NCBI GenBank assembly: GCA_963930775.1
Contig: OZ005690.1
Span: forward strand, 9,098,225-9,162,224
Direction of reading: 5' to 3'
Length of the DNA: 64,000 nucleotides
Source of the DNA: Cliona cf. orientalis
Lineage: Eukaryota > Porifera > Demospongiae > Clionaida > Clionaidae
How positions within the stretch are numbered: position 1 is the first letter of the stretch; the number at the start of each line of letters is the position of its first letter. A program made the position numbers and the translations under genes. Under the pieces are notes generated by a model. The model was not told the DNA's origin. It did no database searches and saw only the letters and a program-made list of their open reading frames with translations. Shown here piece after piece: positions 11,188 to 52,754 of this stretch.

Positions 11188-12958
11188 TTAATTTTGGGGA
11201 ATTACTGTTTGAGACAGTGGGCACCTTAACATGACTAGAGTACATGTAGCAGTTTGTAGCGGTTCTGCTAACATGACGTGGCCATCAGCAGTTGGATGGA
11301 CCATGCTGCACTGGCAGAAGATCTTGAGCCCTTCGGGAGTTTCTTGCTTCAGTAGACCTGGAACTTCCATAGTGTTGAGGAAGCCAACCCCAAATTCACA
11401 CCTCACGTCAAGGGTGTAGTAATTCTGTGTCGACAGAAATTGAACAATCGTTAATTTTATGGCTTAAATTGAGCGGTATATTGAACACATTCAATGTCAT
11501 ACTTAGCTACTGATCATAAGTGACTTGTATAATATTATAGTGACATCCTTCTGCCTATGTATGTACCCGTGCAAATTATAGTAATATTGTATCCCACCTA
11601 TGACGTAGATCAAAGCTACCGCCATGCAGGGCAGTATACTGGATATTGCCCTGTGGCTTGGGCAATATCATGATATTGCCCTGTTGTACAGCTGACTACT
11701 ACAGGTACCTGTCCCAGTGGTCAGACTCAGACACCATACTTGTAGTGCTACTACAGCAGTGGAGATACAAACCAATTATTTAACACACCCCTACTGGTGC
11801 TGTATGGAATAATGCACTCATGCGTAACCACAATAATGATAATATTATAACATAGCATTATCTCCAGGCCTCCTATCCTTTCACGGTATGATACATGGGA
11901 GGGCATGCATGGGAACAGGGGTGACAAGAACATGCGGTTGTGATGTTTTCAGGTCTTAAAATGAAAACTCATGTTTCATGTATGTACTAAATCTCCCTGT
12001 GACTCACCTCAATATCTTTCAGGATGGCCATAGTGCTACAGAACAGTCTGGTGTCCCTGAAAGTTGTTATATTACAAACACTAGTGTCTTGTCGACAGTT
12101 TTGGTAGAGGTTTACTGGACTTTCAAGTCTACTATTAACATTATTCATTGATGTTTGTAGCCCGCTTGCTTGTCCTTGAACTGTGGTTACATCATTTCGT
12201 ATTGTGCCTAGCTGACCATCTATTCGTGAAACGTGATCGTTCAAAGTTGCTGTCTCACTCTGCACTGTATTGATTTGGGAATCAACTGTGGATATGTTAC
12301 GTTTTGTAATTTCAGAGAGTTGACGGAGTTGATCACTTAGTGCGGCAATTGCTTCGACTGTTGCAAAGTTGCTGTTAACAGTCGCTTGTAGTTCACCAAA
12401 TTGAGCGATTAGGGCATTGATCTCAAGAGTAGACACATTTGTAATCTCCTGTAAGTGTGCAACTTCATTGTGTAATTCATCGACTTGTATTGTATAACCC
12501 ATTAGCTGTTGTGGAGTAACTGCCGATTGCTGCAGTGAAGATGAGGAAAGCTGTACAAAGCCTATCCAGAATATGTATACCACCAGTGCACTTGAGGCCA
12601 GCAGAAGAACCAGCATTATTAGCATTATAGTAAGTAATCCAGCTACAACGTAGATTAGTGTTCTCTTCTTTATCTTTGGTTTGTCGTCTAAAGATATGTT
12701 ACTATCACTCATACCTCCATTTAGTCTATATGACCTTTGCATCTGTTGCAGCATTTCTCTACTTACGTGGGCCTGTTGGTAGGAATCGAGCCTCGGTCGA
12801 TGTCGGCTTGATCTCTCTCTTCCCTCGCTTGTTTCAGATTCGGAGAGGTCTGTTTCAGAGACATCTAGTATTCTTTGTCGTGGATCGGTGTAGTATTCTT
12901 CACGATTGCTTCTATCGTACATTTGATGACCATTCTCCATGTTTGCAACAGAGGACAC
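11188..12958 (-). CDS. Type II receptor-like protein B1, long coiled-coil stalk
   Basis: Two exons: 12008-12958 (317 codons, phase-0 donor GAG|GTGAGT) and 11188-11424 (acceptor CACAG, 78 codons plus stop), giving 395 residues. Residues 1-98 form a charged cytoplasmic tail. The membrane segment is about 100-132 (YVVAGLLTIMLIMLVLLL). A long heptad-like stalk rich in Gln, Ser and Thr runs from about 140 to 285. The head starts YQNCRQDTSVC and LFCST in exon 1 and continues in exon 2 with YYTLDVRCEF, FCQCSMV, TCTLVMLRCP. It therefore has all eight family Cys. No signal peptide is seen, so the C-terminus is predicted extracellular. It is the leftmost complete array member and nearest in stalk type to B2. 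Confidence 0.8.
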
Positions 12959-13806
12959 TTTTCTCTATAACACTTTTTTGTTCAAAATTATAGCTATTAG
13001 GTGGATTTTGACTGTCTCAAAGAAAGATATCACTGCTTGCCAATAAGAAGTGAAAAAGTCCCTGTTTTGCAGTGCCACACATGTATGTTATGCTAGTCAT
13101 TTTTACCTCTGAAAACTTTGCAGAGGAGGTTATCACAGTATGTCAAGTATCCGCTGCCAGTGCAGACAATTAAGTATGAATAATGTGTGGGAGGCCTGGT
13201 GCTATAATAATTATGTATTGATGACATGTGGATATAGCTATGAATATCATCAGTTTATGATGATGTGTATGCATTAGGTCAAGGAAGGTAAGGTGAATGC
13301 ATGGCTTTATATGTGTAGTTGCTAAAATTAATGAATAAATACCATAATGTTGCAACAGAAGGCCCACTATGAATTATCCGCCCACCCCCCCAGTTCTGCC
13401 TCAATATCCTGGTAAGATTCATCACTTTTTTGAAAGAATACCTGCCTATGTGCCCGGGCCTCCACCACCCACCTCCCTCCCCCTCCCTCCCCCCTCCCTC
13501 CCACAAAGTTTGAACTTACTGTAAAGTGCACCAACCATGGGCCCTTTTTTGTGAGGTTGTGGTACATTTGATTGCCTCTGACATGATGCCCACACTTTAT
13601 CATGCTTATATGACATTAGTAGAGTAGATAGCCCATGGCAGGTCTCCTGAGACTACATCCCTCAGTGTTTCAAAAGATGTGGTGGTGGAACCTCGTAAAT
13701 GGATCCATGATTGCATGTACTAGTCATAATGTGTATTAAATTTATACACAGTAGAATGGTTACGTATACAGAACATTTCTGCATGCACTAATAATGTAGT
13801 ACGGTA
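12959..13806. other. Spacer between B1 and B2
   Basis: No gene seen. It includes a purine/pyrimidine-biased C-rich stretch (about 13380-13505, with repeated CCCTCC) and AT-rich sequence. Short frames here are compositional. Confidence 0.3.
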
Positions 13807-13960
13807 CCATAGTGTCCCGGGCAAGCACCCACTGTACCGCATTTCAAGCGACCACTGTAGCAGCTTCTTTACAAACATATGGAATATTTTGATCCCGCAT
13901 ACGGCCCAAAATCGCAAGTTATGTTTAAGGGCCCATGGGTGCTTACCCGGGATACTATGG
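13807..13960. mobile_element. MITE, TAGTGTCCC family, complete copy
   Basis: The termini are inverted: CCATAGTGTCCCGGGCAAG at the left and CTTACCCGGGATACTATGG at the right. The inside contains the family signature (GCATTTCAAG, TTTACAAACATATGGAAT, ATGTTTAAGGGCCCATGGG). Related copies lie at 20065, 32394, 34545, 35028, 37335 and around 42660. Non-coding. Confidence 0.8.
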
Positions 13961-14484
13961 TGTAACATATATTCTACTCAGTGAGGATATATTATACGTT
14001 AATGTATCGTGCTTCTATTGTGTTAGTTATCATTCGTGAGCATTGAATAAAATGTAGCAGCCTATAAAGGCATCACATCCACCTATATATGGCTGACCAT
14101 CATCATCCCACACATTCCAAAGATGTCACCTTGAAATGTCACATGATCACGTATAGTATTGTCCAGCAATGTAACATTAGCTTATTAAGTACATGGTTAT
14201 ACTGTAACAATAAGATATGTTGGAAATAGCAACTGTTCCATCAGTTTGTATGAACACTCATACACTAAAGTAACGATAAACAAATACCAATGCAATAAAA
14301 TTAATAATAATCAAAACTTATGGGTTTTCCACAGTATGCAAATTGTTAGTACTGTATAAACTCTCAGCACAGTAATTATTGATGAGAACTTGTCATCCAT
14401 AAAATTAATTATAGTAATATGCAGCAAAACATTAATTAGTTACAATGTATGGTGGTATAAATGTACATTGTAAAGTGAATTGTG

Positions 14485-15979
14485 TTAAGTAATTGTCTGA
14501 GAGAGTGGGCACCTGGTCACAACGAGAGTGCAATTACCAGGGGATGAGGGTATTGAGAGTGTAGCAAAACGTCCGGTAGATGATGGAACTACAATACTGC
14601 ACTGACAGTAATAGTTGCCTGATGGATTCTTTTGCAAGCTTGGTGCTTCTAAGCCTGCAGTAGGTCCACTATATTCACATCTCATATCAAGTGTATAAAA
14701 TCCCTACAACATTATTTAATACATTTTACGGTTAGTATTAATTCCCTAGTCTATAATTATAATCAATTGCCAAAAATTAATCATTGATGGTATTGATTGT
14801 ACATCCTTACAATATATATCGTTAGCTTACCGTTACGTTGGCATTCAAATCGCCAGTGTCGCAAAGAATTCGTCTATTGCTGTTTGCTGAATTGGACACG
14901 GAACAAGAAGCTGTATCTTGGTGACAATTTTGATAAAAATCTATCGTCGAGCTGAGATGGTTATTCAGTGATGTTTGTAGGCTTGATGCTTGATTCCTGA
15001 CTGCTGCAATATTAGTTTGAGTAGTGCTCAGTTGTTGACTGATGACATTTGTTTGTCCGTTTAATGAGGTTATATTGACTGTGGTGGTTATCAGCTGATC
15101 TTGTACTGCTCTAACTCTGTCATCCACTGCCCTAACTTCTTGCTGATTCGTACCGAGCTGATTCTGTACCATGCTGATTTGATAACGTACTTGAGTCAAA
15201 TTATTTCGGGTTGCATTGAAGTTCTTTTGGAGATTACTTTGCATCAGTAGCAAATCATCGATTTGACCTTCTGCTTCCGTGATCTTACTCTGCATCTCTC
15301 GTGACCCATCTTGAAGAATGATAACTTGATTAATCAGAGATGTTGCATTGGAGTGGTCAGTTATTTGTTGTGTCAGATGCTGCAACTGATTGGAATTTTG
15401 GCGTATTTGAGCCATTAAATCTCCCTGCTCACTAATTAGCCACCTGACGGTAGCATTTACTGTATTTTGAAACTTTTGAAGTTCCAATGTTAAGTCTGAT
15501 ATCATTTGCCGAGTACCTTGATTGGAAGAATCTCCTGGTCCTGGAGCAACTACTGCTTGTGGTCCATCAGATCCCAACTGATTTTCTGTTGAGGTACGTT
15601 GTGGAATGGTCACTGCCAAAGCTACTGCTATCAGTGAAATGACTAACAGCACCACCACGAATAGTGACAAAATTATCATGGATACTTTCGTTTTCCTCAG
15701 ATCTTGCTTGATCTTGACTATTTCTCTGTCATCAATGACAGGAGTATTCTCTTTTTCCTTCACTTTTAAATCATCCTTTCCATCTGGTTTACGTTGCAGA
15801 GTATCCCGTTCAGCAGTTGGCAGCTGCTCGTAAATATTATCAAACTGTGTTTGTACTTCTGTAAGAGTCTCATAATTCTCTTCGTCAATACAGCTGTTTC
15901 TTACGGCACATGGATTGATGTATGACACTGGCCTTGGTTGACTGTCGACACCTTCGTACGTCTGATTCAAATACTCCAT
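14485..15979 (-). CDS. Type II receptor-like protein B2, longest stalk
   Basis: Two exons: 14831-15979 (383 codons, donor ACG|GTAAGC) and 14485-14703 (acceptor TTGTAG, 72 codons plus stop), phase 0, 455 residues. The tail (1-96) has several Tyr motifs: YEGV, YETL, YEQL. The membrane segment is about 98-125 (MIILSLFVVVLLVISLIAVALAV). The stalk of roughly 200 residues is Asn/Gln/Thr-rich with repeated coiled-coil blocks and many N-glycosylation sequons. The head has FYQNCHQDTASC, RILCDT, then FYTLDMRCEY, YYCQCSIV, NCTLVVTRCP: eight Cys in family order. The repeated blocks ('QVRYQISMVQNQLG', 'VRAVQDQL') suggest the stalk grew by internal duplication. Function unknown; a surface receptor or adhesion molecule is inferred. 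Confidence 0.8.
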
Positions 15980-16538
15980 ATCGCTCTCTCGTTTAGAATT
16001 ACAGTCAGAAATTTTTCAGGAGTATGCTTTAGATATAGCTGTTTATTTGACAGCGTCTTTGTTTGTGCAGGGTATTTTTGTACTTCCTTCATGTAGATTT
16101 TTTGGCTCATTTAACATTGCTCACTCCTCTTCAGTCAATTAGCTGTGTATGGTGATGTTCGTAAACCGTGCTTAATCATGCATGATTAATGCACGTTCCC
16201 AGTTTTATGTGCATGATAGGTGACGACATAATTTAAACATCGTGGTCAATTCCCATAATTAATGTGAATGCAGGGATTCCCCCAGAACAGAATCCAATCC
16301 AGGTGCTTAATGATATTCATAGGGTTTTAATTAAGTTTTGGCATTAAATTTCACCCATTTCTTTGATGTTCATATAAAGTCAAACCGGGTGGCCCACCCT
16401 GATTCAGGTATGCTGGAGGAAATACTGTGAATGTATAAACAGCATCATTTACCTTTAAGTAGCCTGTATACTGCAAGGAGTGCCCCTCTACATGCAAGCG
16501 GCAATCCTCAATCACATAGTCATACATGTATCATTATT
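15980..16538. other. 5' flank of B2
   Basis: No gene seen. It ends in sequence (from about 16490) that is paralogous to 23220-23260 upstream of the C units, so it belongs to the C-type duplicated spacer. Confidence 0.35.
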
Positions 16539-16945
16539 AAGATCTTGAGGTTCTTGGTTGGGTAAATAGATACTAATCCGCATAGCAAGTGCGCTCGTTC
16601 TTGTTACACCAACACTGGAAGAATTGAATAATAATATTCTTGCCTACAGTTTCGACTGCTATACTGCAGTCTTCTTCAGGGCAATAATGATACAATCAAT
16701 GTACTACACTAGCTATATTTACAGTTCAGTTGTGGGTGTGGCTTGTCCGCGTCCGCGGTAGCCATGATGGTAGACGTCACAACGTCATCTAGAGTCTGAG
16801 TTCTGGGAGTATGGCTGCCCGGTAGGTGGATCTCACGGTGGCCTCTAGCTCCTCTCTCTTCTTCCATTGCTCGACTTGAAGTTGACGGTTTCCAGAAGTA
16901 CTAAGATCTTGAGGTTCTTGGTTGGGTAAATAGATACGGATTAGT
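16539..16945. mobile_element. Inserted 407-bp repeat with terminal direct repeats
   Basis: Flanked by a 13-bp target duplication ATGTATCATTATT (16526-16538 and 16946-16958). The paralogous spacer near 23250 has that sequence once and no insert, which is a direct empty-site proof of insertion. Each end has the same ~35-bp direct repeat (AAGATCTTGAGGTTCTTG...; 16539 and 16903). The left copy is followed by TAATCCG and the right by GGATTAGT. On the minus strand it carries CTGAAGAAGACTGCAG...GCAGTCGAAA, a stem-like motif. Direct terminal repeats with a 13-bp duplication would suit a truncated Penelope-like retroelement, but the family is not established. Confidence 0.7.
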
Positions 16946-16958
16946 ATGTATCATTATT

Positions 16959-20064: not shown

Positions 20065-20255
20065 CCATAGTACCCCGGGTAAGTGCCCATAGGCGTTTTA
20101 ACATAAATCGTGATTTGGGCCTACATGCATGGGTGCTTATACCCGGGATATAATTTCCGTACGTTTGTATAGAAGCTGCTATACATTGATCCCTTGAAAT
20201 GAGGTACATGGGTGCCGCTTATACCTGGGAGTGGGCGCTTGCCTGGGATACTACA
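20065..20255. mobile_element. MITE, TAGTGTCCC family, expanded copy
   Basis: It starts CCATAGTACCCCGGGTAAG and ends GCCTGGGATACTACAG, with internal GTATAGAAGCTGC and family-like segments. It is about 35 bp longer than the 13807 copy and appears to contain a second internal end (CCCGGGATATAATTTCC), so it may be composite. Confidence 0.6.
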
Positions 20256-29959: not shown

Positions 29960-30337
29960 TTAAAATTGTGCCTGAGTATTGTTTCCTATGAAATACTGTG
30001 TAAACTGGGCTAGGAGTTGGCCATACTTGTGCCATCCAGTCGATGATACAGCAATTCCAGCAATAGTGACAATCACAAGTAATATGACAAGTATAATAAT
30101 TACAATGACCAGTATTTTTGACGTCTGTGCTCTTCGCACTCTCTGTCGAGATACCTCCATGGATGCGTCATAGTCGTAGTAGTTGTGTTCTGGTTGTGTG
30201 TACACGCTATCCTCATCTTCTTGGATCTGTGTTTCTGGCACCAATCTAGCGTAGTTTCTTGTCCTAGCTGTGGGGCGTTTCACTTTTCCAACTGGCACTT
30301 CATAATCAACAGCATCATAGATGTAGTTATGCGACAT
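29960..30337 (-). CDS. D: short type II membrane protein without ectodomain
   Basis: 125 residues, one exon. The tail is unusually rich in Tyr (HNYIYDAVDYEVPV, NYARLVPE, SVYTQPEHNYYDYD). A basic stretch (RQRVRRAQTSK) precedes one membrane segment (ILVIVIIILVILLVIVTIAG), and about 25 residues follow, ending GNNTQAQF. It shares the N-terminal layout of the array genes but has no Cys head. It could be a signalling partner or a truncated member. Its upstream region (30340-30790) is copied at 34600 and 36905 in front of the E genes, and its 3' end is fused to C2. Confidence 0.6.
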   Translation of the reverse strand: MSHNYIYDAVDYEVPVGKVKRPTARTRNYARLVPETQIQEDEDSVYTQPEHNYYDYDASMEVSRQRVRRAQTSKILVIVIIILVILLVIVTIAGIAVSSTGWHKYGQLLAQFTQYFIGNNTQAQF

Positions 30338-32393
30338 TATTTAGTTTGACTAACAGTATCTATTAGCTATTATTGCTTCTTTCAATTAGCTATTACTGTC
30401 ACGTACGTGTACCCTACTATTGTGTACATGTCGACAGTTTAGCATACAGTGATCGAGTGGCTCTATCTGAACTGGCTATAGCTGTAGTGTACAAAATAGT
30501 ATGATGTGACATATGTAAACTGAAGATTTCAGACAAAGGATAACAACAAACGAACTGATTATAGCTACCGTATGTATTTATGTGATTCGTGTATACTTTT
30601 CTGTGGTTTACTATCTGCACATTCAGCTAAACGTAATGTTTCCTTATGAGTATACGTGTGCATGCTATCAACAACCCGTTTCTGGTGAAATTGATTCAAA
30701 AACTGCAATCCCACAAGATCTCTAACACATAAATTAAAATTAATAGTAATTGTCCACATTGCTAATATTACAAGTATAAAAAACAATTGAATAAAATTGA
30801 TAGATGAAGTAGGGATGGCAGTGCCAAATTTACACAAACAAGATATGTAGGGATAACGTATCACATCCACTATACATCCCTACGCTTGCTTTTCTCGATA
30901 ATTAATATCATACACTTCTGATTCAGTAAGGTATATATCGCTATCCATGGGTTACGGTATTGATTTTCCATTCCTGCATGTGCCCCATATATTATAATAA
31001 TATTATGTGTGTGCACGGCTACTCAAAAAGCAAGCGTAGGGATGTATAGTGGGTGTGATATGTTATCCCTACATATCTTGTTTGCGTATTTTTTGGCACT
31101 GCCATCCCTACTTCATCTATCAATTTTATTCAATTATTTTTTATAATTGTTACTTTTTTTTAGTGCCCTCGGGGTAGCTCATGATTGTCACAGTTAATGT
31201 CATCAATGCCATCTAGCTGACTAATTTCGTAGGGACAGAAGCCGGGCATGAAACTATACAATGTCTTACCATGATGACCTGATATTATGGTTTGGACCTA
31301 TTCATTGTTATTTATAAATACTTAGAACCAGCTGCAATTTTTTTTTTCTGGACCAAGCAACTGTGCTCCAACAATAATACAATACTATAGGGAAGTAGGT
31401 ACACCTGGACCACTGATTCAGCATGTCACGTTGTACGATCCTAGCCTTTGTGTCAGGCCTGAGCTATTGTACCACAACACACCGTGATTTCAAACTTGAA
31501 TATTCCTGTAAGTGCAAATCCCAGCCTTTGTCAGTCGTTTGATAGCTAGCTAGGATGTCTTCTTTTGCAACACATACTATTGAACATAATAATGGGATTC
31601 TCGAGGTAACCAGCTAAACTGACCTGCGAGTGAAGCCACGCCCCTCGTTATCTTGATCCGGTACTGGTATATCATGAAGCTCAGTAGCTGACCGATGAAC
31701 TTGAAAGAAGGCCGTTTAGAACCAAGTAGCGACGAAAGTCTTCTGTTTCGGGAGCGTATTTTGTAGGCCAGTAAGCTTACTGTTGGTAAGTAGCCACTAT
31801 AAATAATCAACAGTTCACTGAGCTGATCAGCTGAGCGCTCCTGCTCGATCCGGCGACCAGGTCCTAGTCCTAGCCTGCGCCTGGCTGCGCCGGCGCACGC
31901 GCGCCACTTACATCGGTCACATGACTTCACCATGGCAACACCAAATGAGCATGCGCATTATATGACAAAATGGCCAATTGAACACACCCACTCGCAAAAT
32001 GCGCGCTGTACACACCCACAATTAAATCGCTGTCCTGATAACACAAAACGAGCGTGCCACAGACGTGCGTGCTCTAAAATGGAGTGGATTTATACTCGAA
32101 CTAAGGTGAGCGGTCATGGTAGTCTTGAGTTAGCCCAAGAAAACAGAAAGAAAGAAAGAAAGAAAGAACGAAAGATTGAGAAAATGGCTATTTTTTGAAC
32201 ATCTGGTTCTGGCATACACAATGGAGTTGATGAATGATCTTGATCTTGTTAGATCGATAACTTGCTGTAGATTCCGATTTTGACACTTAGAACTCTCATA
32301 AAATTACCTGTTTTGAGATATTTTGATATTTGTAATGTATTACATATATGGAGTATCCGTGCCATCCCTACTTATAGAGTCTACCGACTCTAT
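30338..32393. other. D upstream region and spacer
   Basis: 30340-30790 is a duplicated promoter block (AGTTTGACTAACAGTATCTA...), with copies at about 34600-35025 and 36905-37320. 31136-32393 has no supported gene; it includes a GC-richer patch near 31840-31930 and a short AGAA repeat at 32145-32172. Confidence 0.45.
30785..31135. repeat. Large inverted repeat, ~110-bp arms
   Basis: The left arm 30785-30893 (…GAAGTAGGGATGGCAGTGCC…TACATCCCTACGCTTGC) is the reverse complement of the right arm 31026-31135, with ~130 bp between. Only a few mismatches. Could form a cruciform; either a foldback element or an inverted duplication. Confidence 0.8.
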
Positions 32394-32806: not shown

Positions 32807-33492
32807 TTATGCAGGACATCTGGTAAGTCCCAGTGTACAAGATAGAGGAGTGAGGGAAGTATGTCTTCCTTGTAAATGCACAATTGTTCCATTAGGCGTG
32901 ACATCTAGAAGAGTACATTGGCATTTGATAGAATTGGTACCATTACTCACCAGTGTAGAAACCTTAAGATAATCAATATCTGTACTAAATTCACATCTGA
33001 CATCGAATGTATTAAATTCCTGCATGTAATTCAATGAATTTAAAGCTACAATTGAGATAAAATTTGACTTACCTTCATATGTAAAATTAACCCCTCTGTT
33101 GTGCAATTTGACTGAATATAATAAAATGACTGAATAGTATTATAATATCGCCATTCAAGTTTGGAAAGAGTGCAACTGGTATTTTCATGCTTGCAGTTCT
33201 GAAAGTAGTTTGATTCACTTTTAGCAGTCAATTTAATCCAACCAACTGAAACTAAAGTACTGCCTACAATTATCACTAATAGAAGGAGCAGACCAAGAAG
33301 TACTATCACTGTTATCATCCTTTTCTGATTTTGCTGAATATGTTTGAGAGTTTTTCCACTTTTACTGTTTTGCTGGAGTGGCTGATAATCAGGTATTCCT
33401 ACTGATTTTTTCTCTATTGGCATGTACCTGACGCCACCGGTGTTGTCTTTAACTTGATCAGCATTGTCGTAAACTGAAAGGTAGTCGTCCAT
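32807..33492 (-). CDS. Type II receptor-like protein E1 (ITIM-like tail)
   Basis: Exons 33073-33492 (140 codons, donor AAG|GTAAGT) and 32807-33019 (acceptor ATGCAG, 70 codons plus stop), 210 residues. The tail holds YLSVYDNAD, VRYMPIEKK (fits the ITIM consensus [SIVL]-x-Y-x-x-[ILV]) and DYQPL. Membrane segment VIVLLGLLLLLVIIVGSTLV. The stalk is very short. The head has NCKHENTSC, SNCTTEG, then FNTFDVRCEF, KCQCTLL, SCTLGLTRCP: eight Cys. Exon 2 is the same length (70 residues) as in subgroup C despite low identity. First of three E copies on ~2.3-kb repeat units. Confidence 0.8.
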
Positions 33493-35453: not shown

Positions 35454-36116
35454 TTATGCAGGACATCTGGTAATTGCCAGTATACAAGATGGAGAAGTAA
35501 AGGAAATATGTAGTCCTTGTAAATGCCCAATTGTTCCATTAGACATGACATCTAGAAGACTGCATTGGCATCTGATAGAATTAGTACCATGACGCACCAA
35601 TGTAGAAACTTCAAGATACTCAGTATCTGTACTAAATTCACATCTGACATCGAATGTATTAAATTCCTGCATGTAATTGAATGAACTTAAAGGTATAATT
35701 GAGATAAGATTTGACTTACCTTCATATGTAAAACTAACCCCTCTGTTGTGCAATTTGGCAGAATAAATACTAGCCAGCTGGAAAGCTTGCAACTGGTATT
35801 TTTCTTGCTTGCAGTTCTGGAAGTAGTTTGATTCTGAATCACTTTTAGCAGTCAATTTACTCCAACCAACTGAAACTAAAGTACTGCCTACAATTATCAC
35901 TACTAGAAGGAGCAGACTAAGTACTACGATCACTGTTATCACCCTTTTCTGATTTCGCTGAATACGTTTGAGAGTTTTTCCACTTTTATTGTTTTGCTGG
36001 AGTGGCTGATAATCAGGTATTCCTACTGACTTCTTCTCTATTGGCATGTACCTGACGCCACCAGTGTTGTCTTTAAGTTGATCAACATTGTCGTAATCTG
36101 AAAGGTAGTCGTCCAT
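35454..36116 (-). CDS. Type II receptor-like E2, frameshifted and open through intron
   Basis: Tail and membrane segment match E1 and E3 (MDDYLSDYDNVD, VRYMPIEKK, VVLSLLLLVVIIVGSTLV). After NCKQE, one extra base relative to E3 shifts the frame, so the second and third family Cys are replaced by unrelated residues. In the shifted frame the normal intron (donor GAAG|GTAAGT, acceptor ATGCAG) contains no stop and runs in frame into exon 2 (FNTFDVRCEF, RCQCSLL, SCILAITRCP). An unspliced message would encode 220 residues; a spliced one meets a stop (GGA ATT TAA) just after the junction. It is either a young pseudogene or a copy now relying on intron retention. Confidence 0.6.
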   Translation of the reverse strand: MDDYLSDYDNVDQLKDNTGGVRYMPIEKKSVGIPDYQPLQQNNKSGKTLKRIQRNQKRVITVIVVLSLLLLVVIIVGSTLVSVGWSKLTAKSDSESNYFQNCKQEKYQLQAFQLASIYSAKLHNRGVSFTYEGKSNLISIIPLSSFNYMQEFNTFDVRCEFSTDTEYLEVSTLVRHGTNSIRCQCSLLDVMSNGTIGHLQGLHISFTSPSCILAITRCPA

Positions 36117-36780
36117 AGTAGCTAGCAGATTTTAGTATTCCTTATTCAGTTGAATATCCGATATATGAGTGTCAATATTTAGTGTGGGCCCACTATAAAC
36201 TTGTTTCTTTGACCTTATTTGTATGTACCAATGTAAAATTAATGATTATTACTATCGTAATGCAGCTTATAGTAGCTACTTTCAAAACAGATTTATCGGT
36301 AGCTACTGTTTTTTCTGGGCTACACTTGTAGGTGTCAAGGTATGGTATCATACATCAGTACGTAGTTACACTAGCTGGAGATGCATACAGTGCCAGAGTA
36401 TTCACTCATTATCTCAGTTTAGTGTTGTACGCTGTTGAATGTTGGTATTTACTTGAGGGATCAATATTATTTTTTGTGGTTTTTTGCCAATTTTTGCTCA
36501 AAATCAGATTTCCTAGATAAAGGTTTCATAGCCTTAGCTTTTATCACTCTCAATGTTTACTTTTGCAAACATGGCTATCACTATAGTCACGTGCATGAAT
36601 CTTAAGATACCCAATATCTCAATGATCATTTCACTGTACTTATCGGATAATTGTTTCACTATTATACTATCAGTCATTTTTAATCCTCACGGGTATCATG
36701 CATGCACACCAAATTACATGTAGCCATCTGTACGGAATTTGTTGACATTAAGACTGTCCTCCATAATAATTATGATATGT

Positions 36781-37782: not shown

Positions 37783-38438
37783 CTATGCAGGACATCTGGT
37801 AAGTGCCAGTGTACAAGATGGAGGAGTGAGGGAAGTATGTAGTCCTTGTAAATGCACAATTCTTCCATCAGGCGTGACATGTAGAAAAATGCATTGGCAT
37901 CTGATAGAATTATTGATACCATTACGCACCAATGTAGAAACCTTAAGATAATCAATATCTGTACGAAATTCACATCTGATATCGAATGTATTAAATTCCT
38001 GCATGTAATTCTATGAATTTAAAGCAATCATTGAGATAAAATTTGACTTACCTTCATATATAAAACTAATCCCTCTGTTGTGCAATTTGGCAGAATGAAA
38101 TTCCAGTTGGAAAGCTTGCAACTGGTAGTTTCTTGCTTGCAGTTCTGAAAGTTGATTGATTCACTTTTAGCATTCAGTTTAGTCCAACCAACTGAAAGTA
38201 GAGTACTGCCTATAATTATCTCTAATAGAAGGAGCAGACCAAGAAGTACTATCACTGTTATCATCCATTTCTGGTTTCGCTGAATATGTTTGAGAGTTTT
38301 TCCACTTTTACTGTTTTGCTGGAGTGGCTGATAATCAGGTATTCCTACTGACCTCTTCTCTATTGGCATATACCTGACGCCACTGGTGTTGTCTTTAAGT
38401 TGATCAGCATTGTCGTAATCTGAAAGGTAGTCGTCCAT
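37783..38438 (-). CDS. Type II receptor-like protein E3 (ITIM-like tail)
   Basis: Exons 38052-38438 (129 codons, donor AAG|GTAAGT) and 37783-37998 (acceptor ATGCAG, 71 codons plus stop), 200 residues, phase 0. Tail: YLSDYDNAD, VRYMPIEKR (ITIM consensus), DYQPL. Membrane segment VIVLLGLLLLLEIIIGSTLL. Head: NCKQETTSC, LPNCTTEG, FNTFDIRCEF, RCQCIFL, SCTLALTRCP, with all eight Cys. A Glu in the membrane segment (LLLEIII), where E1 and E2 have Val, is notable, because charged residues there often pair with partner subunits. The upstream flank holds the true DARS2 exon 3. Confidence 0.8.
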
Positions 38439-39100: not shown

Positions 39101-42100
39101 GTCCTTAAGTGCCCAGTACATGACGTTCATTCCGCTATATGACCACACTGGTACCACCCAACTGACCTGTGCTGCTCATGAGTGGAGAGATGTACTCTCT
39201 TCCATGAAAACTGAAACTGTAATCAAGGCAACAGGAATGGTACAAGAAAGACCAGAAAACGATCAAAATAGAGTAAGTGAACAATATTAACAGTTTATTA
39301 CTATGGTTGAGCGGTTATTTTCAGGAAATGCTTACTGGTGCAATTGAGATCAAAATCGAGAAAATGGAGATTCTAAATGATATTCCAGATGACTTGCCAT
39401 TCCTACCATCTTCAAAGAAGTTAAATGCAAGTCTCATTATTGCTGATAACTATTCAGAAACTCTCTGACTCTCTCTGTCTCTCTCTCCTCTGTCTGTGAC
39501 CATCTTCCTCCATCTCTCTAACTCTTTCCCCCTCTCTCCATCTTTGTCCATGACATCTCTTCTCTTTTTTCTTATAGATCACTGAAGAACTTTCTCTTCG
39601 TGAAAAACAGCTAGATCTTAGAAGCCCTAAGATGCAACATAATCTAAGATTGCGATCACAAGTTGCAATGGCAATGAGAGAATTCCTCGTTCACAAACAT
39701 GGTATTGTCTTTATCTTATTGAGTGCGTTACCATGATTAGACCCCCTGCATTTCTCATGCATAGAATTTGTTGAAGTTGAAACACCAACTTTATTTCGAA
39801 GAACATCTGAAGTGAGTGTCATTAGGCTGTCGCTATGATGCCTATTGTACTGAAGTATTTCTTGGATAGGGTGCAAGAGAATTCATAGTTCCCTCAAGAA
39901 AGCCAGGAAAATTCTACTCACTTGTTCAGAGTCCTCAACAGGTATACTTACATTCTTATAGGAAAATAATTACGTGTTTCTTTTGTAGTTCAAGCAGTTA
40001 CTAATGGTTGGTGGAATTGACCGCTACTTCCAATTTTCCCGTTGTTACCGAGATGAAGATTTGAGAGCAGACAGACAACCAGAGTTCACTCAAGTAAAAA
40101 TAATACATTCTGAAAATTATACCACACTTGAATGATGAGTATAGTATTATGTAGTCGTACATACACAGCAATAGAATCTGAGAATAAAAAGAAGTTAGCT
40201 ATATAGCTATACTTTCAGGAGATGGAAACTCATTGTACAACTTTAACTTCTGAGCATAGATTTCTATAGTGGTTGGCCATCTTCATCGCAGTAGAGCCAC
40301 ACTTTTTCATGTAGCTGAGATAGATATTGCCACAGTATTCATCGCAGTAAATTGCCATCAAGTCCTTCAATGTAGTTGCAGTGCTGAACCGAAGCTGGCA
40401 GACTACTGGGTACTTTCGTGTGTACCAATGGTGATATTCCTTTTCAGTACAATCACTGAAGTAATAGTTAAAAGTTCTTGGTACTCTTCTTGTTATTAAA
40501 TCAGCTGCGAGGTTGACACTCCGTAGATCAGGGTGAAAATTGGTGTACACTAGGTTATGAGCAGAATTACTTAAACTACTGGAGCTCTTACTGGTATCAG
40601 TTAGTTGACCACTAACAGATGCACAAGTTGTGTACTTGCAAAAATAAGTAAATATTAGTAAGCAGCGAACTAAATAATGACTAGAGGTGAGTTGACTCAT
40701 TTCAGAATTATTTCTGTAAGAACCTGACAGCTATAGTATTATGTGTAGCTAGCTATACTTTTATTCACAATCCTATTGTCACATTGTCAACCACATCTTA
40801 TTGCACCTAGTTCCATTGTTTAAAGTAGGTGCTATTCAATGGATAAGTCCTCCGAGTCACTCAATGGTCTATTGAGCTAGCATGTAGCAACACGTTTTCA
40901 TCCTATCAGAATCTCATTCATAATACAATGATAAGTAGAAACTTACTGTGATAGCCATGTCCATAATATCGTGAAATGGAATTGACTCTGATTCCTTTGC
41001 ATAGCTCCATAACATTATAATACTTTGCAAGCTAATCTATGTTTCCCGTTGCTTTAAGAAGCTCAATTCAGAGTAATCACCCCGTGGATATCATTTATAA
41101 GGGATAATGTGTTAGATGAACTATCACTTTAGGTTGATCTTGAGATGTCGTTCGTCAAACCAGAAGGCATAATGAGTCTCATAGAAGACTTGCTGTCGAC
41201 AACTCTCGCTCAAACTGTACCTCATTTGAAGTTCACTGCTCCACCGTTCCCAAGGATGGAATACAAAACAGCAATTGAAACGGTATATACAATGTATATG
41301 ATAGCTTCATGCGTACTGTAAATAAATTAACGCTGTGTACATAAGATTGACACTCTACCCATGCATAGCAGCTAGGATATACATACACCCTTCTTCATGG
41401 ATCATGAGACCATAATATCATGCATGCATTGAGCATACAAATAAATTATTGTCAAATTTTGTGACACGATTTCGGGTATGATTCATGCCAAGTCACTTTT
41501 CATGTCCCTGATTGGCAAGAATGTACAGGTACCTATAGCGATTAAATTAATACTAATTCAGCAATTTCCAAGCTGCAAGGTAGAACAATCTTGTATAGCT
41601 GTAACGGAGAGAGAGCAGCAACTATTCAATAATATGCTGTTTGATGTTTCTCAATACATTCTGGACAATCAGAGAACTTCGAAGACGTAACTTGGTATGA
41701 ATCTCATTTTCATGGTGGGCCTAAACGCTCTCACCAAAAGTATGCATGCACACATAACACATATACACATGCACTCACACACATATCATTGATTATTGCT
41801 CACATGAATGGCACAATTAATGTTTACCATAGTACAACAGTGATAAGCCTGACACTCGTGAGGATCCATCTGACAACATGAAGTTGAATTTCCTTTGGGT
41901 TGTTGATTTTCCATTGTTCACCTTGAACAAAGATACTGGACAGTGTATGCAACTTTGAAATAGTATTTCGTCAATGATAATGATAGTTTTTGCTCACTAG
42001 TGGAATCATCTCATCATCCCTTCACTGCTCCTGTGCTGGAAGATGAACATCTACTGTATACGGGCAACAGCATGGATTTAGAAAAGGCACTTTCTCATAT

Positions 42101-42659: not shown

Positions 42660-43735
42660 ACAAACATATGGAAAGTATGTCCCGGGTAAGTACCCATGTG
42701 GGCTAAGATCACGATGCATGTTTAAGGGGGTCTCCCTGTCAGAGAATTTTCAGACGTTTTTTTCTCCAATACCATAGAGGATATGCATGGGGAAAAATGT
42801 CATATCGAAGTACTTGGAAAAATAGACATTTTGGTGCAAGTTTCACGTCCGTAGGGGGTGTAGAAGCCGAGATACTGATGTCCTAGAACACCAAAAAATC
42901 ATCAAAAAAATCGTAAAAAGTTCATTTCTTGAGTTTTCATTTATGGGGGGTACAGAAAAAAATCTGAAAATAAAAATTTACCCCACTTGTTTTGAAAATA
43001 TGTTCTTTAGAAAGAACCCATTGAGAGGATTACAATGGTATATTTTTCCCCATGCATATCCTCTATGGTATTGGAGAAAAAAAACGTCTCATATCAGGAA
43101 GTTTCTGTACAATTTGGGACATCTTAGTAGCTAGCGTTAGCTGGTGTTAAATATCAGCACACTTTGAGGGCGCTAGGTGTTGATGAAGTCTCTTGAGCTA
43201 GCTGACACTGCGGTCTATACAAAGCTATGGAGTATTATGCCCAAAACTTCTTGGCAAATTGGCGAGTAGACTACTCTACAGTTATGTCTGAAAGTTGTTC
43301 AGACTTAATGTACACTCCTAATAGAACAGCGCTCTGGGGTGCAAAATCGCTGTATGTACACGCGTTCTAATATAAATGGCATAGAATGACCACGCCTCCT
43401 CATTCCCCTATACTTGGTAATACAAATCTGGCGCCGTGCATTATGCAAAATGGCACGTAAGGCAGGGAAGATATCCAGCTTTATTTAGTATCTACTTTGA
43501 GCAGACAAGCTCACCAAGACTGCTCTGGGGTGCAAAAAGCCCTCAAGTTGTTTTGAAAGAAGATATTGAACTAAATAGATCTTTCCAATACATTTTTCCT
43601 ATACCTACATTCAGTGTGAAAGGGTGCTACCTTGTACGACAAACAAAAAAATGTCCCCCAACTTCTTCATATGTGAAAATTCTCTGACAGGGAGACCGCC
43701 TGCACCTATGGGCGCTTATCTGGGACACTACATGC
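42660..43735. mobile_element. TAGTGTCCC MITE split by a second transposon
   Basis: Outer parts match the MITE family (CTTTTATACAAACATATGGAAAG, CCCGGGTAAGTACCCATG, GCATGTTTAAGG at left; CCTATGGGCGCTTATCTGGGACACTAC at right). The middle, 42729-43697, is a different element with inverted ends GGTCTCCCTGTCAGAGAA / TTCTCTGACAGGGAGACC and further internal inverted blocks (CCAATACCATAGAGGATATG at about 42769, inverted near 43055). It has no convincing gene. It sits between the convergent 3' ends of DARS2 and the RASSF gene. Confidence 0.75.
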
Positions 43736-46175: not shown

Positions 46176-47025
46176 TTTGGCTGCCCCACCCCTTTTCTTG
46201 CTGGAATCGAATATCTGGAATGAAACTTTAAGATGACACGCGTGAATGTGAATATTGCCAGACAGTACCTGAATAGCGCATGCGCATGCGCGATCGTGCA
46301 TGCACATGTACGTGTAAGAGTGTGCTACAATAGGAACATCGATAATATGCAGCGCATCTGTTCCTGGCCACTTGTAAGTCCATAGTTAATATTAATTTTA
46401 GTGTAAAGTAAATGGATTATTAAATTTTAATGTTTAATACCACTAATAGAATTATCAATAGATTTTGTACGTGTACTAGCTAGCTAGCTGTAGCTGTTCT
46501 TGGTGCCAGCCCTGGCACCCTGACTAGCTACTACAAGTATGGTAACGTGAGACTGAGCTGACAGTACCAGTGTCACTAGACTGATAGTAATACATAATAT
46601 GAGGACATTCCTTGATAATTAGTGAAGGAATATCCAACTTTTTCTCAGAACAAATTGGCCACAAAGGCTGTGAAAGATGAGCTAGATCATTACATACATA
46701 TCAGCGGCTCCGTTTTCCTGTAGCTACTTAGTTAAACATCTATTCTTTCAGCTATATGGCTATATATCTAGCACTGATTTACTGTTTTTCTGCCTATGAA
46801 GGTGACCTTGTACAATTAGCTAGTAGTACTGTCAAGAGTATGTATATTATGTCGCTGAATGCATGAGGTATCCATGGATGTGGTAACAGATGGACAATTA
46901 TAATAGCACAATGTCATACATAATGGTTTAGTAAAATTCTAAGGCTTAACCACATATTCAGTGCATAAGATTATATACGTAATATTTTGATAAAGACACA
47001 CGCTTAAGCTATGTTATAATACTTA
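46176..47025. other. RASSF upstream region
   Basis: Contains CGCATGCGCATGCGCG near 46276-46292 and the AT-rich spacer to F1. The block 45840-46780 is duplicated at 49415-50340. No further gene. Confidence 0.5.
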
Positions 47026-47952
47026 TTATAGTGTAACTATTGGGCACCTCATGATGGTCATTGTGCATGTTATACTGGCATAGTAATTTCTTGTGTTATG
47101 TTGATCATGTCCTGTTTCATTTGGAGTCACCATGTTGCATACGCAGCTTACATGATTTGATGCATCAGGATCTGGTCGTTTGAGAGCTGAAGTCACTAAA
47201 GCAGTAGAGGAGTAATAGATGTATGTGCTATAGTGCTGACATCTAATGTCCACTGTGAAATAGCCCTATTATAAAAACATAGCAGCAGTTATACTGGCTT
47301 AATATGGCATTGAGGGGATATAATAATAGTGTTACACTTGGACTATATTAACCAATGATGTGATTTAAATAGATTCATATAATATTATAATATACTTTGT
47401 AGTTTTTCAGCTCAAGTATAGTTCTGTATACCGATAGTATATGAATTAGCAACTTACAGTTTGGTTAACGATCAGTAGTGGAGTCTCACAACTAGGTTTA
47501 ATCTTATACTTCGGGGACAAGCTACAAGTGCTTGTGTCCTTAAAGCATTTGTTATAAGACATCCTATTTATGACTTCTTTCATACTATTCTTGAACTCCT
47601 GTAGCTCATCTGACAGTTGATCTTTCTCAGCTGATAGCTCGATGTTTTCAATTGATAGTTTAGTGATGAGTTGAAATTCGACAGAAGCCAGTACGACTGC
47701 TGCTATGGTACCCACAGTGAGTAATGTAAGTAGCATACTTGCTGCAGCGATAAATAAACCAGACCTTTTCTGGCGCTTACTACCACTCTCTCTTGCTGGT
47801 ACTTGGTACTGCTCACTGACAGTTCTTTTCTTAATCAGTGTTTCTGGGGACAGCTTGGCATACTCAACATCACTGGTGAAAGCTGATGTGGCTTGCTCTT
47901 TTCGTCCAACATTACCATACACAGGAACATAATCGGTCATTTCAGCATTCAT
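47026..47952 (-). CDS. Type II receptor-like protein F1 (ITIM-like tail)
   Basis: Exons 47458-47952 (165 codons, donor ACT|GTAAGT) and 47026-47265 (acceptor AATAG, 79 codons plus stop), 244 residues. Tail: TDYVPVYGNV, VEYAKLSPE (fits the ITIM consensus), EQYQVPA. Membrane segment FIAAASMLLTLLTVGTIAAV. Short coiled-coil stalk (IENIELSAEKDQLSDELQE). Head: YNKCFKDTSTC, KPSCETP, then YFTVDIRCQH, SCVCNMV, TCTMTIMRCP, all eight Cys, with a longer exon 2 loop than in C or E. Lies outside DARS2, upstream of the proximal RASSF exon 1. Confidence 0.8.
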
Positions 47953-49647
47953 TGATCTAGCTGTTTATGAACGTTCAAACTTGATATACGCTCTTCAAGT
48001 GTGCCTATAATCACAATTGATTCCTTATATATTTTGTAAGTCAGAAGTTGAAAGCAACTTCGATATGGTTAGTTCGTTGGGATTAGCTGCGTGTGTCTAT
48101 TTTGTGTACTTCAATTTCCATAAAAGTTTATACAAACACCAACTGCGTACTACCCGGTACACTGATCATGAGACTATAATAGTTTAATTATACTGTGAAA
48201 GTCCATGGGATATTAATTATATGAACAATGTAAACATTTGGGACTTCTCCCAGAAATAATATAAATAGTTACTCTAGGCTGACAAGCTTCAAACGGTATG
48301 TAAGCAGCTTACATTAACAGTTGAGAAGAGGGAGATCATTTTCGATTGCCAGTGAATATACACGAATGTGTTTACTCAGTATCAATCATGATACTGAAAC
48401 TATGATATCATAGTAACTATATATGGAGAGAAAAAAAGCACCCCAGCATGCACTGATATACTTTAATTCTGGCAGCTATGGGGAACCTAGTCATATCTTC
48501 TTTATGATTCACGTGAATAATTATGTCCCAACAGAGATTGTTTATGTTTGCACAAGATTACCACATCTTAGGACTTGGGATATTATGTAATGTGGCTAGA
48601 GTAGTAAATTAGCCTGTTTTGCCACAAATGTGAAAATTTGATGTTTAACACTTTTTCCCTCACATTCAATATTATGCTTCCGCTGCCTATGCATGCTCGC
48701 ATACATGCACACACACTCTTCAACATGCATGCACACAAACTCTCCCTGTTTACTATATTAGTGTCCATGTTAGGCCTTACTATTGTTGTAAACACCCTCC
48801 TCTAGAGTTGAGTTTTGTGCTTAGGTCTTACTAGTTCTGTCTCTGTTGTTGTGGATGCTATCCTACTGTCAAGAACGTTCACGGTAGCTATTCTATCATT
48901 GTGATATTGCATGCACGCAATTTAGTGGGTTTCAACCATAGCTAGCCAGTCTAGCCTCTATTAGCACTATTTGATCATCAATTATTGTCTTAGAAAGAAT
49001 GCGACTGGGATTGTTAACCTGAATTAACAGTCTAAAAGTACTTATGCATCACTATCATCAATCTCAAATAAAATTATCAATTGATCAATCTATAGAAAAC
49101 CTAGTGTGAATAACAAAAGTTTAATATCCTTGCACAGCTTACCATGTGAGCCATGAAGTTTACCAATATAAACTTATTCTGTAATCTCATTGATCCGGCA
49201 TAAGTTGCTTTCCTGCTGATTCTGATAATATCATAATCATAGGTAGTAAATTGCCTAACTCCAGTGGCATAGCTAGGAGTGTTAGTTTGGTCGAACATAC
49301 GGTATCAGGGGGGGTTGGGGGCATGCCCCCCCCCCCCCCCCCAGAGAAAATTTTAGGTGCTCTGAGATGCTTTCTGCATGGAGGCTCCTGAGGCCATCAT
49401 TGAATAATAATAGTGCAATTTTAATACTCGTCATCATGTAGCTAGCTGCATGTGCAGATAATTTTTAATACAGCTCATTTCTAGTATAGTAGAAGGTATA
49501 GTAAGCTACTTTTGTTTGTTAGCTACACCATAGATAGTACTAGCTATCCATAGCTAGCTATGGCTGTATACACACTGGATCTACGTGAAGATGTCATGTT
49601 TTTTGAGATCTGCAGCTAAATTTAACATAGCCACTATATTAATGTAC
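47953..49647. other. F1 5' flank and unit boundary
   Basis: 48120-49300 has close paralogues at 52920-54700. A C tract at about 49329-49342 follows CCAGTGGCATAGCTAGG, a terminal-like motif of a dispersed repeat. From 49394 the second copy of the RASSF upstream block begins. No gene. Confidence 0.5.
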
Positions 49648-49739
49648 CTTTTGATAAATGTTTCAGCCGTGGTGTTCCATTTAACCCCCTTAACAATCTC
49701 GACTCGATCTTCAAAGGCAACGAGTACGTCCTTCTCCAT
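49648..49739 (-). CDS. Second copy of RASSF first coding exon
   Basis: 92 bases with ATG at 49739 and donor AAAAG|GTACATT, exactly parallel to 46084-46175. Only two bases differ (ACG/ACA for Thr, AAG/AAA for Lys), both synonymous, so the peptide MEKDVLVAFEDRVEIVKG... is identical and the phase-2 donor is kept. It is upstream of the proximal exon in gene orientation and could act as an alternative first exon, spliced to 45649. That would place F1 inside the RASSF gene. It may equally be an unused by-product of duplication. Confidence 0.7.
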
Positions 49740-51811
49740 TTTGGCTGCCCCACCCCCTTTTCATGCTGGAATCGAATATCTGGAATGAAATTTCTCGATC
49801 GCGTGAATGTGATTGTTACGGCATGCGCATGCGCATTCGTGCATGCACACGTGTATATACATGCGTAAGTGTGCTGCAATAGGAACATTGATGTCATTCC
49901 CGGCCATTTACACCGTATTGGTAAGTCCATAATGAGTGCAAAGTAAATACTAGAATATATTAATATTTATTACTGCTACCAATATTAAAATATTATATCT
50001 TGTACTAGCTACTGTACATGTAGCTATTCTTGGTGCCAGCCCTGGTACCCAGGCTACCTGACCATAGATGGTCTCAGTATAGCTATGGTGAAACGTGAGA
50101 CTGATGGTGTTTTATAAGTGCTATGTATAGCTATTCGTCATAGTAATAGCTAATTATAAGGACATTACTTCATGATTAGTGAAGGAACATCTTTCATGGA
50201 ACAAGTCTCAGTGCACGTGGCCGCAAAGTCTGTAAAAGATGAGCTAGACTATTGCATGCTCATTTTTCCTATAGCTACTGCATGAGTTAAACGTCGGTTC
50301 TTTCAGTTATATGTGACTGTTCATGATGCATAATGCATTGGATATCAATCTGAGATACAGGCCAAAATAGTTACCTATGGTGATAACTATCGATTTTCAC
50401 TTTTTGGTATAGATCGATAGAGGAATCATTCCTCTACACAAAAATCTGCTTTGTAGCTTCGAATTATGGCTCAAAGAAGTCGGCCGTGTAGTAAACATTG
50501 ACCGTCCATGATACGGAGCCATTGTTATAGTTGCAGGTAGGCAAGCATGGCAGCTGCACACAAAAATGTCTCCAGCCACTTTTTTCTTTGATTCTGTATA
50601 CTAACGATCTTTAGAAACGTTCGTCTTCTTGTTCTTTTCCATCAAAACGTTGGCTGCTGCTCTAGTTTGAACATTTTGGTAGCCAGCTAGCTCATTGAAT
50701 TGGTGGATGGGGCCAAGTATTAATCATAAACGGCGAGTAAACAGATTTCCGTGTGCAACGTATGTAGCAATGTTCATTGCAATTTTTTGCAAAACTTTAG
50801 TACGGGCGATCGGGTATATTTTTGCTCATATCTCCATGACTACACGACCTATGGAGACTTCAAATTTGCTGGAGCAATAGTTCGTAGGTTGTAGTTGGTA
50901 ATGGTGGTCTAAACTCAAAAAAATTTTCAGCGCTGACCTATTTTTCTATCTATGAAGTAGTGTCGCAAGCCACACCACCCAATCCGCGAGGGTCTGGTGA
51001 ATGCACATACAGCAATTGGTTCTGTTAGAATTCAATAATTGATGATGTCAACTCTCCTTGTATTATATTACTGTCCGCTTAGTTTCTTTGTCAGCAATTT
51101 CTTTGTCACTGACATACCCGGCGGCTATACCTTTACGAGTAAAGGAGCTTAACTGATTTTAATAAGGGCTATCGGTGGCGATACTATAGCTACCATGCAT
51201 AACAATTGACGTCTTTTCGATCAATCCTGTCTGCAAATCAGAGATAAATGGCAGTAGCACGACTTGCCATATCCGGTAGGGAGAGACACACAAACACTTC
51301 GCTGCCACTAACAAACTTCATACAGAGCCTTCCTGTGCATGCTATTCCTTTAAGCAAGCATAGCCTGCAGAGGGGGTGCTCGAGCCCCCTGAGCACCCCC
51401 TACCTATGCCACTGACCATGCCCACTATAATTATTGAGACACAGTGCAATGGCTATAGTATCGAGTTTATGGTATCGGTTGTGCCATCCCTCTCTTCAGC
51501 CCCCATTTTATGCAATCAAGCTGTATTCCAGGACATTGGTACTTAAATCAGCAATCTGCATGGGGAATAGGTCAAATTCAGGAACTATCTCAGGCAAGTA
51601 GCTAGTTAGCTATGTTGTAGTGTGGATTACATTTGCTATCAGATAGATCTTATTATTATAATCCAGCAGAGCATACGTGAATCAAGGTTATATAATATTA
51701 TTATTTCTGAGCTTTACTAGCTGAAGTATTGTTACACAAATTCCTTCAATGCATAATATTATTTTGATGAAGACACACTCTTAGTCTATTAGCTATATAT
51801 AGTGTTTGTTG
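49740..51811. other. Duplicated RASSF upstream block, then an insert
   Basis: 49740-50340 copies 46176-46780. 50350-51420 is not in the first unit and ends with GTGCTCGAGCCCCCTGAGC, CCTATGCCACTG (inverted form of the CAGTGGCATAGG motif seen at 49262 and 54662). It is probably a non-autonomous DNA element with hAT-like CAGTGGC ends. No gene supported. Confidence 0.45.
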
Positions 51812-52754
51812 TTATACTAGTGTAAGTATTGGGCACCTTGTGATGATCATTGTGCATTCTATACTGGCATAGTTGGGTTCTGAGACATGTTGATCATGTC
51901 CTAATGCATTTGGAGTCACCATGGTGCATACACAACTTATGTATCGTGATTTAGGAAAGAAACGTCTAGTAGTTGGTCGTTTGAGCGTTGAAGTCACTAT
52001 AGCCGAAGAGGAGTACCCAGCGTGTGTGCTGAAGTGCTGACATCTGATATCCATTGTGAAATAGCCCTATTAAAATAAGTTATATTATTATGAGAAAAAT
52101 TGTAATATAAAAACCAGAGATAAGGAAGTACTATAATATTATGCTAACTAAGAAAACTTTGCAATTTTTTTAGTTCTAGTAAAGTGATAAAGGTTCATGC
52201 TGACCTTTTAATTTTATTCTATAGCTTTATGTAGTATTGCAACTTACCGTTTGGTTAACAAGGAATTGTGGAGTCTCGCAATATGGTTTAATATTTGACC
52301 CTGGGAACAAGTTGCATGTCCTTGTTTCCTTGAAGCATTTGTTATAAGATAACCTATTTTCGATTTCTTCTTTCATTGTAGCCATACTAGTCTTTAACTC
52401 TTGTATCTCATCTGACAGTCGATCCTTCTCAGCCGATAACTCGATGTTTTCAATTGATAGTTTAGTGATGTCTTGAAATTCAACAGAAGCCAGTACGACT
52501 GCTGCTATGGTACCCACAGCAAGTAATGTAAATAGCACACTTGCTGCGGCGATAAGTAAACCAGACCTTTTCTGGCGCTTACTACCACTCTCTCTTGCTG
52601 GTACTTGGTACTGCTCACTGACGGTCCTTTTCTTAATCAGTGTTTCTGGGGACAACTTGGCATACTCGACATCACTGGTGAAAGCTGATGTGGCTTGCTG
52701 TTTTCGTCCAACATTGCCATACACATGAACGTAGTCAGTCATTTCAGTATTCAT
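51812..52754 (-). CDS. Type II receptor-like protein F2 (ITIM-like tail)
   Basis: Exons 52248-52754 (169 codons, donor ACG|GTAAGT) and 51812-52066 (acceptor AATAG, 84 codons plus stop), 253 residues. The tail is almost identical to F1 (TDYVHVYGNV, VEYAKLSPE, EQYQVPA) and so is the membrane segment (LLIAAASVLFTLLAVGTIAA). The stalk has a few extra residues (SMATMKEEIENRL). Head: YNKCFKETRTC, KPYCETP, YFTVDIRCQH, SCVCTMV, ECTMIITRCP. Differences from F1 are concentrated in the head, while tail and membrane part are conserved, a pattern worth testing for diversifying selection. Confidence 0.8.

Follow-up and report, generated by a model that had tools for sequence, protein, structure and literature searches.

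The NK-type C-type lectin-like receptors form a clustered group of type II proteins, in which a cytosolic tail with tyrosine motifs is followed by one membrane segment, a stalk, and a C-terminal head with a characteristic pattern of cysteines (PMC3322459). As outlined in that source, their genes consist of six exons, with one each for the tail, the membrane segment, and the stalk and three for the C-type lectin-like domain (CTLD), and the head contains six cysteines. Clustered recognition genes are also found in invertebrates. The fester co-receptors (FcoR) of Botryllus and the Alr proteins of Hydractinia, candidate allorecognition receptors, are described as carrying ITIM, ITAM, or hemITAM motifs, or the core Y-x-x-I/L/V, in their tails, and the FcoRs have a signal sequence and Ig and sushi domains (PMC12065747). 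Sponges, cnidarians, and ascidians, in the same account, have candidate allorecognition proteins that are not conserved, and the two systems studied converge on ITAM/ITIM signaling. For sponges, the existence of a polymorphic system is implied (PMC5450542). For the mode of evolution only, the sea urchin Sp185/333 genes offer a further comparison; they are reported to be tandem two-exon genes with mosaic paralogues for which recombination or gene conversion is proposed, with a near absence of pseudogenes (PMC5103432).

Here, we describe a tandem gene family from the sponge Cliona cf. orientalis, found in a window of 64,000 nucleotides (contig OZ005690.1, positions 9,098,225 to 9,162,224). The predicted products have the layout of the NK-type receptors, but they differ in having two coding exons in our models and eight cysteines in the head. 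Lectin_C, the C-type lectin-like domain, was not matched in a Pfam hmmscan of nine heads, which agrees with the earlier note on this DNA, where no C-type lectin motif had been seen. Since this closest layout fails on both the domain and the number of exons, the family is placed in no known one. Unlike the FcoRs, the proteins show no signal peptide layout, have the opposite membrane orientation, and gave no Pfam match to the Ig or sushi families in the nine heads. The Sp185/333 proteins are unrelated, and damaged copies, nearly absent there, are frequent here. On their sequences, the genes look like candidate lineage-specific recognition receptors.

Gene models and copies of the cluster

Eleven pairs of exons, all on the minus strand, form the tandem cluster and fall into four subgroups (B, C, E, and F). 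Each exon 2 has its own exon 1 directly upstream (11 of 11), and no unpaired exon 2 was found in the window. A six-frame search with a slightly loosened form of the C-terminal motif returned 11 matches, all on the minus strand and all within the 11 exon 2 frames, each of which carries the R-C-P end. The motif at the start of exon 2, T-[LFVM]-D-[VIM]-R-C, was matched 12 times in the same kind of search, by the 11 family members and one stray on the plus strand.

Gene models were built from the open frames and splice signals for 10 of the 11 copies; E2 was omitted because its exon 1 is frameshifted. In all 10 models, exon 1 ends exactly 8 residues past C/S-x-T, exon 2 starts exactly 3 residues ahead of T-[LFVM]-D, and the junction is in phase 0 at a GTRAG donor that is the sole in-phase one in the stretch listed. 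The AG acceptor stands at the expected place in 10 of the 11 copies, with AT in C3 as the exception, and the introns range from 53 to 583 nt. The chief reason for assigning the two halves to one gene is the constancy of this geometry across the four subgroups; splicing would join them. The two-exon plan with a phase-0 intron, proposed for 11 copies in the earlier note, largely fits these predicted models. The C-x-T end that the note assigned to exon 1 keeps its exact spacing in the 10 models, with serine in place of the cysteine in C3 and C4.

The B1 gene (11188..12940) consists of exon 1 at 12940-12008, for the tail, the membrane segment, a long stalk, and the start of the head, an intron of 583 nt at 12007-11425, and exon 2 at 11424-11188 including the stop codon, for a predicted product of 389 residues. 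In B2 (14485..15979; 455 residues), exon 1 at 15979-14831 is followed by an intron of 127 nt (14830-14704) and exon 2 at 14703-14485. The first C copy, C1 (17638..18894), has exon 1 at 18894-18244, the intron at 18243-17851, and exon 2 at 17850-17638, and would encode 287 residues. Only an exon 1 remnant, with pieces of the tail and the membrane segment in two frames, was found at C2 (20587..21088), and no exon 2. The exons of C3 (21581..22676) are at 22676-22098 and 21793-21581, around an intron at 22097-21794. For C4 (24126..25166; 226 residues) the corresponding positions are 25166-24699, 24338-24126, and 24698-24339, and for C5 (27558..28675; 250 residues) they are 28675-28136, 27770-27558, and 28135-27771. 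The E copies share a 53-nt intron: E1 (32807..33492; 210 residues) has exon 1 at 33492-33073, the intron at 33072-33020, and exon 2 at 33019-32807; E2 (35454..36116) follows the same plan with its intron at 35719-35667 and exon 2 at 35666-35454; and E3 (37783..38438; 200 residues) has exon 1 at 38438-38052, the intron at 38051-37999, and exon 2 at 37998-37783. Finally, F1 (47026..47952; 244 residues) is composed of exon 1 at 47952-47458, the intron at 47457-47266, and exon 2 at 47265-47026, and F2 (51812..52754; 253 residues) of exon 1 at 52754-52248, the intron at 52247-52067, and exon 2 at 52066-51812.

All eight head cysteines are found in one frame in eight of the 11 copies (B1, B2, C1, C5, E1, E3, F1, and F2). 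In C3 and C4 the third cysteine is replaced by serine, which leaves seven in each head, and C3, with its AT acceptor in addition, is probably damaged. The frameshift in exon 1 of E2 puts the part with NCKQE and the part with the next cysteine in different frames. E2 retains its 53-nt intron, bounded by GTAAG...CAG, and the intron and the frameshift together leave one frame (35454-36131) open from the methionine to the stop codon of exon 2. An unspliced read-through product is therefore conceivable, and it would be without two of the three exon 1 cysteines. With three of the 11 copies breaking the eight-cysteine head or its frame, the description of the cysteine pattern as structurally fixed was too strong; what stands of the 11-copy observation is the layout and the homology of exon 2, with exceptions for the C3 acceptor, the C3 and C4 cysteines, and the E2 frame.

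Homology across the subgroups was measured with leave-one-subgroup-out profiles, which were searched against the frames of the window. The held-out profiles recovered all 11 second exons with E values of 2.5e-10 to 3.1e-19, compared with 0.1 for the best non-family frame of 1995. The end of exon 1 is less well supported across subgroups. The held-out E values were 2.8e-6 to 0.0017 for C, 1.8e-4 and 2.8e-4 for B, and 7.8e-6 and 0.041 for E3 and E1, respectively; those for F (0.15 and 0.27) were no better than the best non-family frame (0.082), and F is inseparable from the background. This result for F would also fit exons that are not joined as drawn, with exon 1 giving a headless product or being spliced to the second exons of other copies, an exchange that the phase-0 junctions would permit. 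We consider such an arrangement very improbable, because all 10 models have the exact spacing and the splice consensus and every exon 2 is paired with an exon 1 of its own.

The remainder of the window contains several other features. An intact-looking frame of 930 residues for a transposase (4394-7186, minus strand) has HTH_psq, HTH_Tnp_Tc5, and DDE_1 domains, and a 54-bp tandem repeat (6.7 copies, 5178-5538) lies inside it. A frame of 412 residues (8730-9968, plus strand) matches the APD1-4 N and middle domains, which are known from plant E3 ligase proteins. On the minus strand, a frame of 1269 residues (55245-59054) has a Chlam_PMP repeat match and a C-terminal part that, by eye, contains multiple membrane segments, and a frame of 166 residues (40230-40730) looks secreted, contains cysteines, and has no Pfam match. 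Inverted repeats at 30770-31150, 42752-43089, and 53226-53611 (48-125 bp, 93-98% identity) are hairpin- or MITE-like and are located in and beside the cluster. Rfam and tRNA scans of the window returned nothing.

Topology, stalk, and tail tyrosines

A single hydrophobic segment is present in each of the 10 models, and K/R residues are more numerous on its N-terminal side than on its C-terminal side; for E3 and F2, the two windows flagged overlap and belong to a single membrane segment. N-glycosylation sequons are concentrated in the predicted ectodomains (36 in 1818 residues) relative to the tails (5 in 749 residues). The type II topology that had been proposed is supported by these observations, and the head would be located at the cell surface. 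The hydrophobic residues of the stalk recur with a period of about 3.5 in B1, B2, and C1, where 2, 1, and 4 of 1000 shuffles, respectively, were as strong, and less clearly in C3 (25 of 1000). F1 and F2, the other two of the six copies scanned, show no significant periodicity (152 and 156 of 1000). The stalk of the E copies is 18 residues long.

The motif Yxx[LIV] was counted in five tails (B1, B2, C1, E1, and F1), chosen as one per head-bearing subgroup except that both B1 and B2 were used. There are 12 occurrences, compared with 3.8 in shuffled tails (1 of 5000 shuffles as high). The ectodomains of the same five proteins are not enriched, with 6 occurrences and 6.75 expected. The B1 tail has none. 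The B2 tail carries DEENYETL, which we take to fit the hemITAM consensus and which is the only site of this kind, and YETL-x10-YEQL. By the consensus patterns, ITAM-like spaced pairs are present in B2, C5, E1, and E3, and ITIM-like sites in C1, C3, C4, E1, E3, F1, and F2. Patterns of four tyrosines were also tried; these had been devised after viewing the tails, so their shuffle rates were set aside as evidence.

The tails of three subgroups can be aligned. The C1-E1, C1-F1, and E1-F1 alignments scored better than 1000, 990, and 980 of 1000 shuffles, respectively, and the B tails did not align with those of C, E, or F in the same comparison. Because the C1, E1, and F1 tails align, the statement that the subgroups share almost nothing else went too far. 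Held-out tail profiles were weak, with best E values of 2.2e-4 for C, 0.077 for F, and 0.19 for E, and they did not find B2. Two further frames on the minus strand have a family-like beginning. The first, A (3264-3689), has an N-terminal tail with tyrosines (MEDYIHIYKIP...) and one membrane segment, and its likeness in sequence is not significant. The second, D (29963..30340), is a possible headless relative with a tyrosine-rich tail and one membrane segment, and no eight-cysteine head was found downstream. Their matches to the tail profile (2e-6 for D and 0.049 for A) leaned on the membrane segment; when this segment was excluded, D gave an E value of 1.4 and A was not found, and 16 and 18 of 2000 shuffles were as good for the D-C1 and D-F1 tail alignments. 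Because of this dependence, A was dropped as a member and D was kept as a weak one. With the A and D tails added, the count of Yxx[LIV] is 16 versus 5.6 (0 of 5000 shuffles).

The suggestion of a signaling role gains from the tail-specific excess of Yxx[LIV] and from the tyrosine layout shared by the C, E, and F tails, and it is weakened by B1, which is without the motif, and by the unaligned B tails. Yxx[LIV] is known as a signal for endocytosis as well, and because of this double use in sorting and signaling, the strongest rival is that the proteins are trimeric type II receptors of the endocytic or scavenger type, with AP-2 sorting signals in the tail and a head that captures particles or macromolecules for uptake. 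The excess of the motif fits sorting equally well, and macrophage scavenger receptor A has a comparable design: a type II protein with a coiled-coil stalk and a cysteine-rich C-terminal head. Its SRCR and collagen domains have no Pfam match among the heads and exon 1 frames scanned here (nine of the 11 heads, for SRCR), and the tails, with up to three or four motifs each and ITAM-like spacing in B2, C5, E1, and E3, carry more than one sorting signal would need. We regard the endocytic alternative as unlikely.

The preferred proposal is that the genes encode a tandem family of clustered, single-pass type II receptors that signal via the tyrosines of their tails, and we would put its chances at about even. 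The N-terminal tail, with its several Yxx[LIV] tyrosines, would reside in the cytosol and be followed by the one membrane segment, and the stalk, which by its periodicity may be a coiled coil in B1, B2, and C1, would assemble the subunits. A ligand would be bound by the C-terminal head, a presumably compact and disulfide-bonded domain of ~100 residues, predicted to be mainly beta in structure, with halves contributed by the two exons. Engagement of the heads would cluster the receptors wherever they are expressed, a cytoplasmic kinase, of the Src type or another, would phosphorylate the tail tyrosines, and the phosphorylated tails would recruit SH2 proteins, as in the clustered receptors of other animals. 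Syk is listed in a kinome classification as emerging in chordates (PMC8662651), a placement that counts against signaling by way of ITAM and Syk in an early animal.

The eight-cysteine head

The head pattern is retained in the B, C, E, and F subgroups, whose identity to B1 is 28-41%. Over nine aligned heads, the invariant positions are C10, C17, T31, T43, D45, R47, C48, C76, C78, G87, C100, R106, C107, and P108 (B1 head numbering); the third cysteine is not among them because C4 is without it. Pfam hmmscan of nine of the 11 heads (all except C3 and E2) gave no convincing family. Eight families were matched in one member each with a best E value of 0.029, and these chance-level matches include Intimin_C (0.033, in one of the nine heads) and Ephrin (0.049). 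NCBIfam gave only chance-level matches for the same nine heads (best 0.025, in one head), and a search of the PDB sequences with the head profile gave one, to PapE (0.58). GTDB genomes and IMG/VR were searched for relatives of the head, with 12, 17, 5, and 15 pattern matches, none of which was confirmed; this says little because these collections hold bacteria, archaea, and viral contigs. In the open-licence PMC literature, no such family is described in the titles and beginnings of abstracts among the matches listed, which is not proof that it is unpublished.

AlphaFold models of exon 2 alone were all-beta, with a mean pLDDT of 67 for C5 and 73 for B1 and pTM values of 0.39 and 0.44, respectively. 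The exon 2 half of the head is thus predicted, with low to moderate confidence, to be all-beta. Foldseek searches with these models, each of which is half a domain, gave best E values of 0.49 and 0.56. An NTF2-like protein (E 0.56, probability 0.77, TM 0.43) was rejected because the query model covers only half a domain. The view that no known domain can be recognized therefore stands at the level of sequence in Pfam, NCBIfam, and the PDB, and the fold comparison, for exon 2 alone, yielded no significant match. As far as these three collections go, the head is a new domain family by sequence. A diverged Ig-like fold is conceivable, the comparison of folds having covered exon 2 only.

A predominantly beta head, as predicted from exon 2, would also suit membrane-anchored ligands or adhesion molecules, in which the head signals to a receptor on a neighboring cell and the tail is secondary. 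The TNF ligands and similar proteins have the same order of type II membrane segment, stalk, and C-terminal head. The TNF homology domain has no Pfam match in the nine heads, a head of ~100 residues would be short for such a domain, and the excess of tyrosine motifs is specific to the tail, which this explanation treats as secondary. An anchored ligand is accordingly an unlikely reading, and signaling receptors remain our preferred one.

Evolution of the copies

The C copies are, by their sequences, mosaics of one another. At sites that distinguish C1 from C5, the C4 tail agrees mostly with C1 (34 sites to 14), the remainder of exon 1 and the intron agree mostly with C5 (23 to 5 and 112 to 12, respectively), and exon 2 and the 3' flank return to C1 (21 to 16 and 40 to 19). 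None of 2000 permutations gave a mosaic as strong. The count for the 5' flank (183 to 36) is inflated, since most of the C5 flank is unrelated sequence. C4 and C5 share 93% identity in the intron and 87% in exon 2, whereas the order is reversed for F1 and F2, with 65% in the intron and 85% in the coding part. No mosaic is claimed for the E copies because the strong chi-square stems from the unrelated 5' flank of E1 and the counts within the genes are small.

The dN/dS values for eight pairs were 0.34-0.61 ahead of the head and 0.56-1.27 in the head. The values for E1-E3 (1.27) and for exon 2 of the F pair (1.12) are suggestive of positive selection on the heads, which we do not claim, because none of the Fisher tests reached significance, whichever the direction (lowest p, 0.088). 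The ratios therefore establish neither constraint on the heads nor their diversification, and the latter is a suggestion only. High ratios that are not significantly below 1 would also be seen in a tandem family that is in decay, or that is recent and without a settled function, and damage is common in the cluster (the C2 remnant, the C3 acceptor, the cysteine losses in C3 and C4, and the E2 frameshift). Eight copies are nonetheless intact, none of the 10 models departs from the exact junction geometry, and the head pattern persists in B, C, E, and F at the identities given above, and we give decay little credence. For a family of signaling receptors, duplication and recombination among the copies would introduce variation in the heads and stalks and leave the cysteine frame in place.

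A bolder form of this proposal is that the cluster is a germline-diversified recognition family of an early-branching animal, with a new eight-cysteine beta head, ITAM/ITIM-like signaling that converged on the logic of NK receptors, Alr, and FcoR with an unrelated ectodomain, and stalks and heads exchanged by recombination. We regard it as speculative and rather doubtful. Even so, a cluster of genes whose products combine tyrosine motifs in the tail with a head that has no match is the kind of candidate that would make allorecognition signaling in sponges testable. If the germline-diversified reading is true, the cell-surface receptors with which sponges recognize self and nonself or microbes, long missing, would have a candidate in these proteins.
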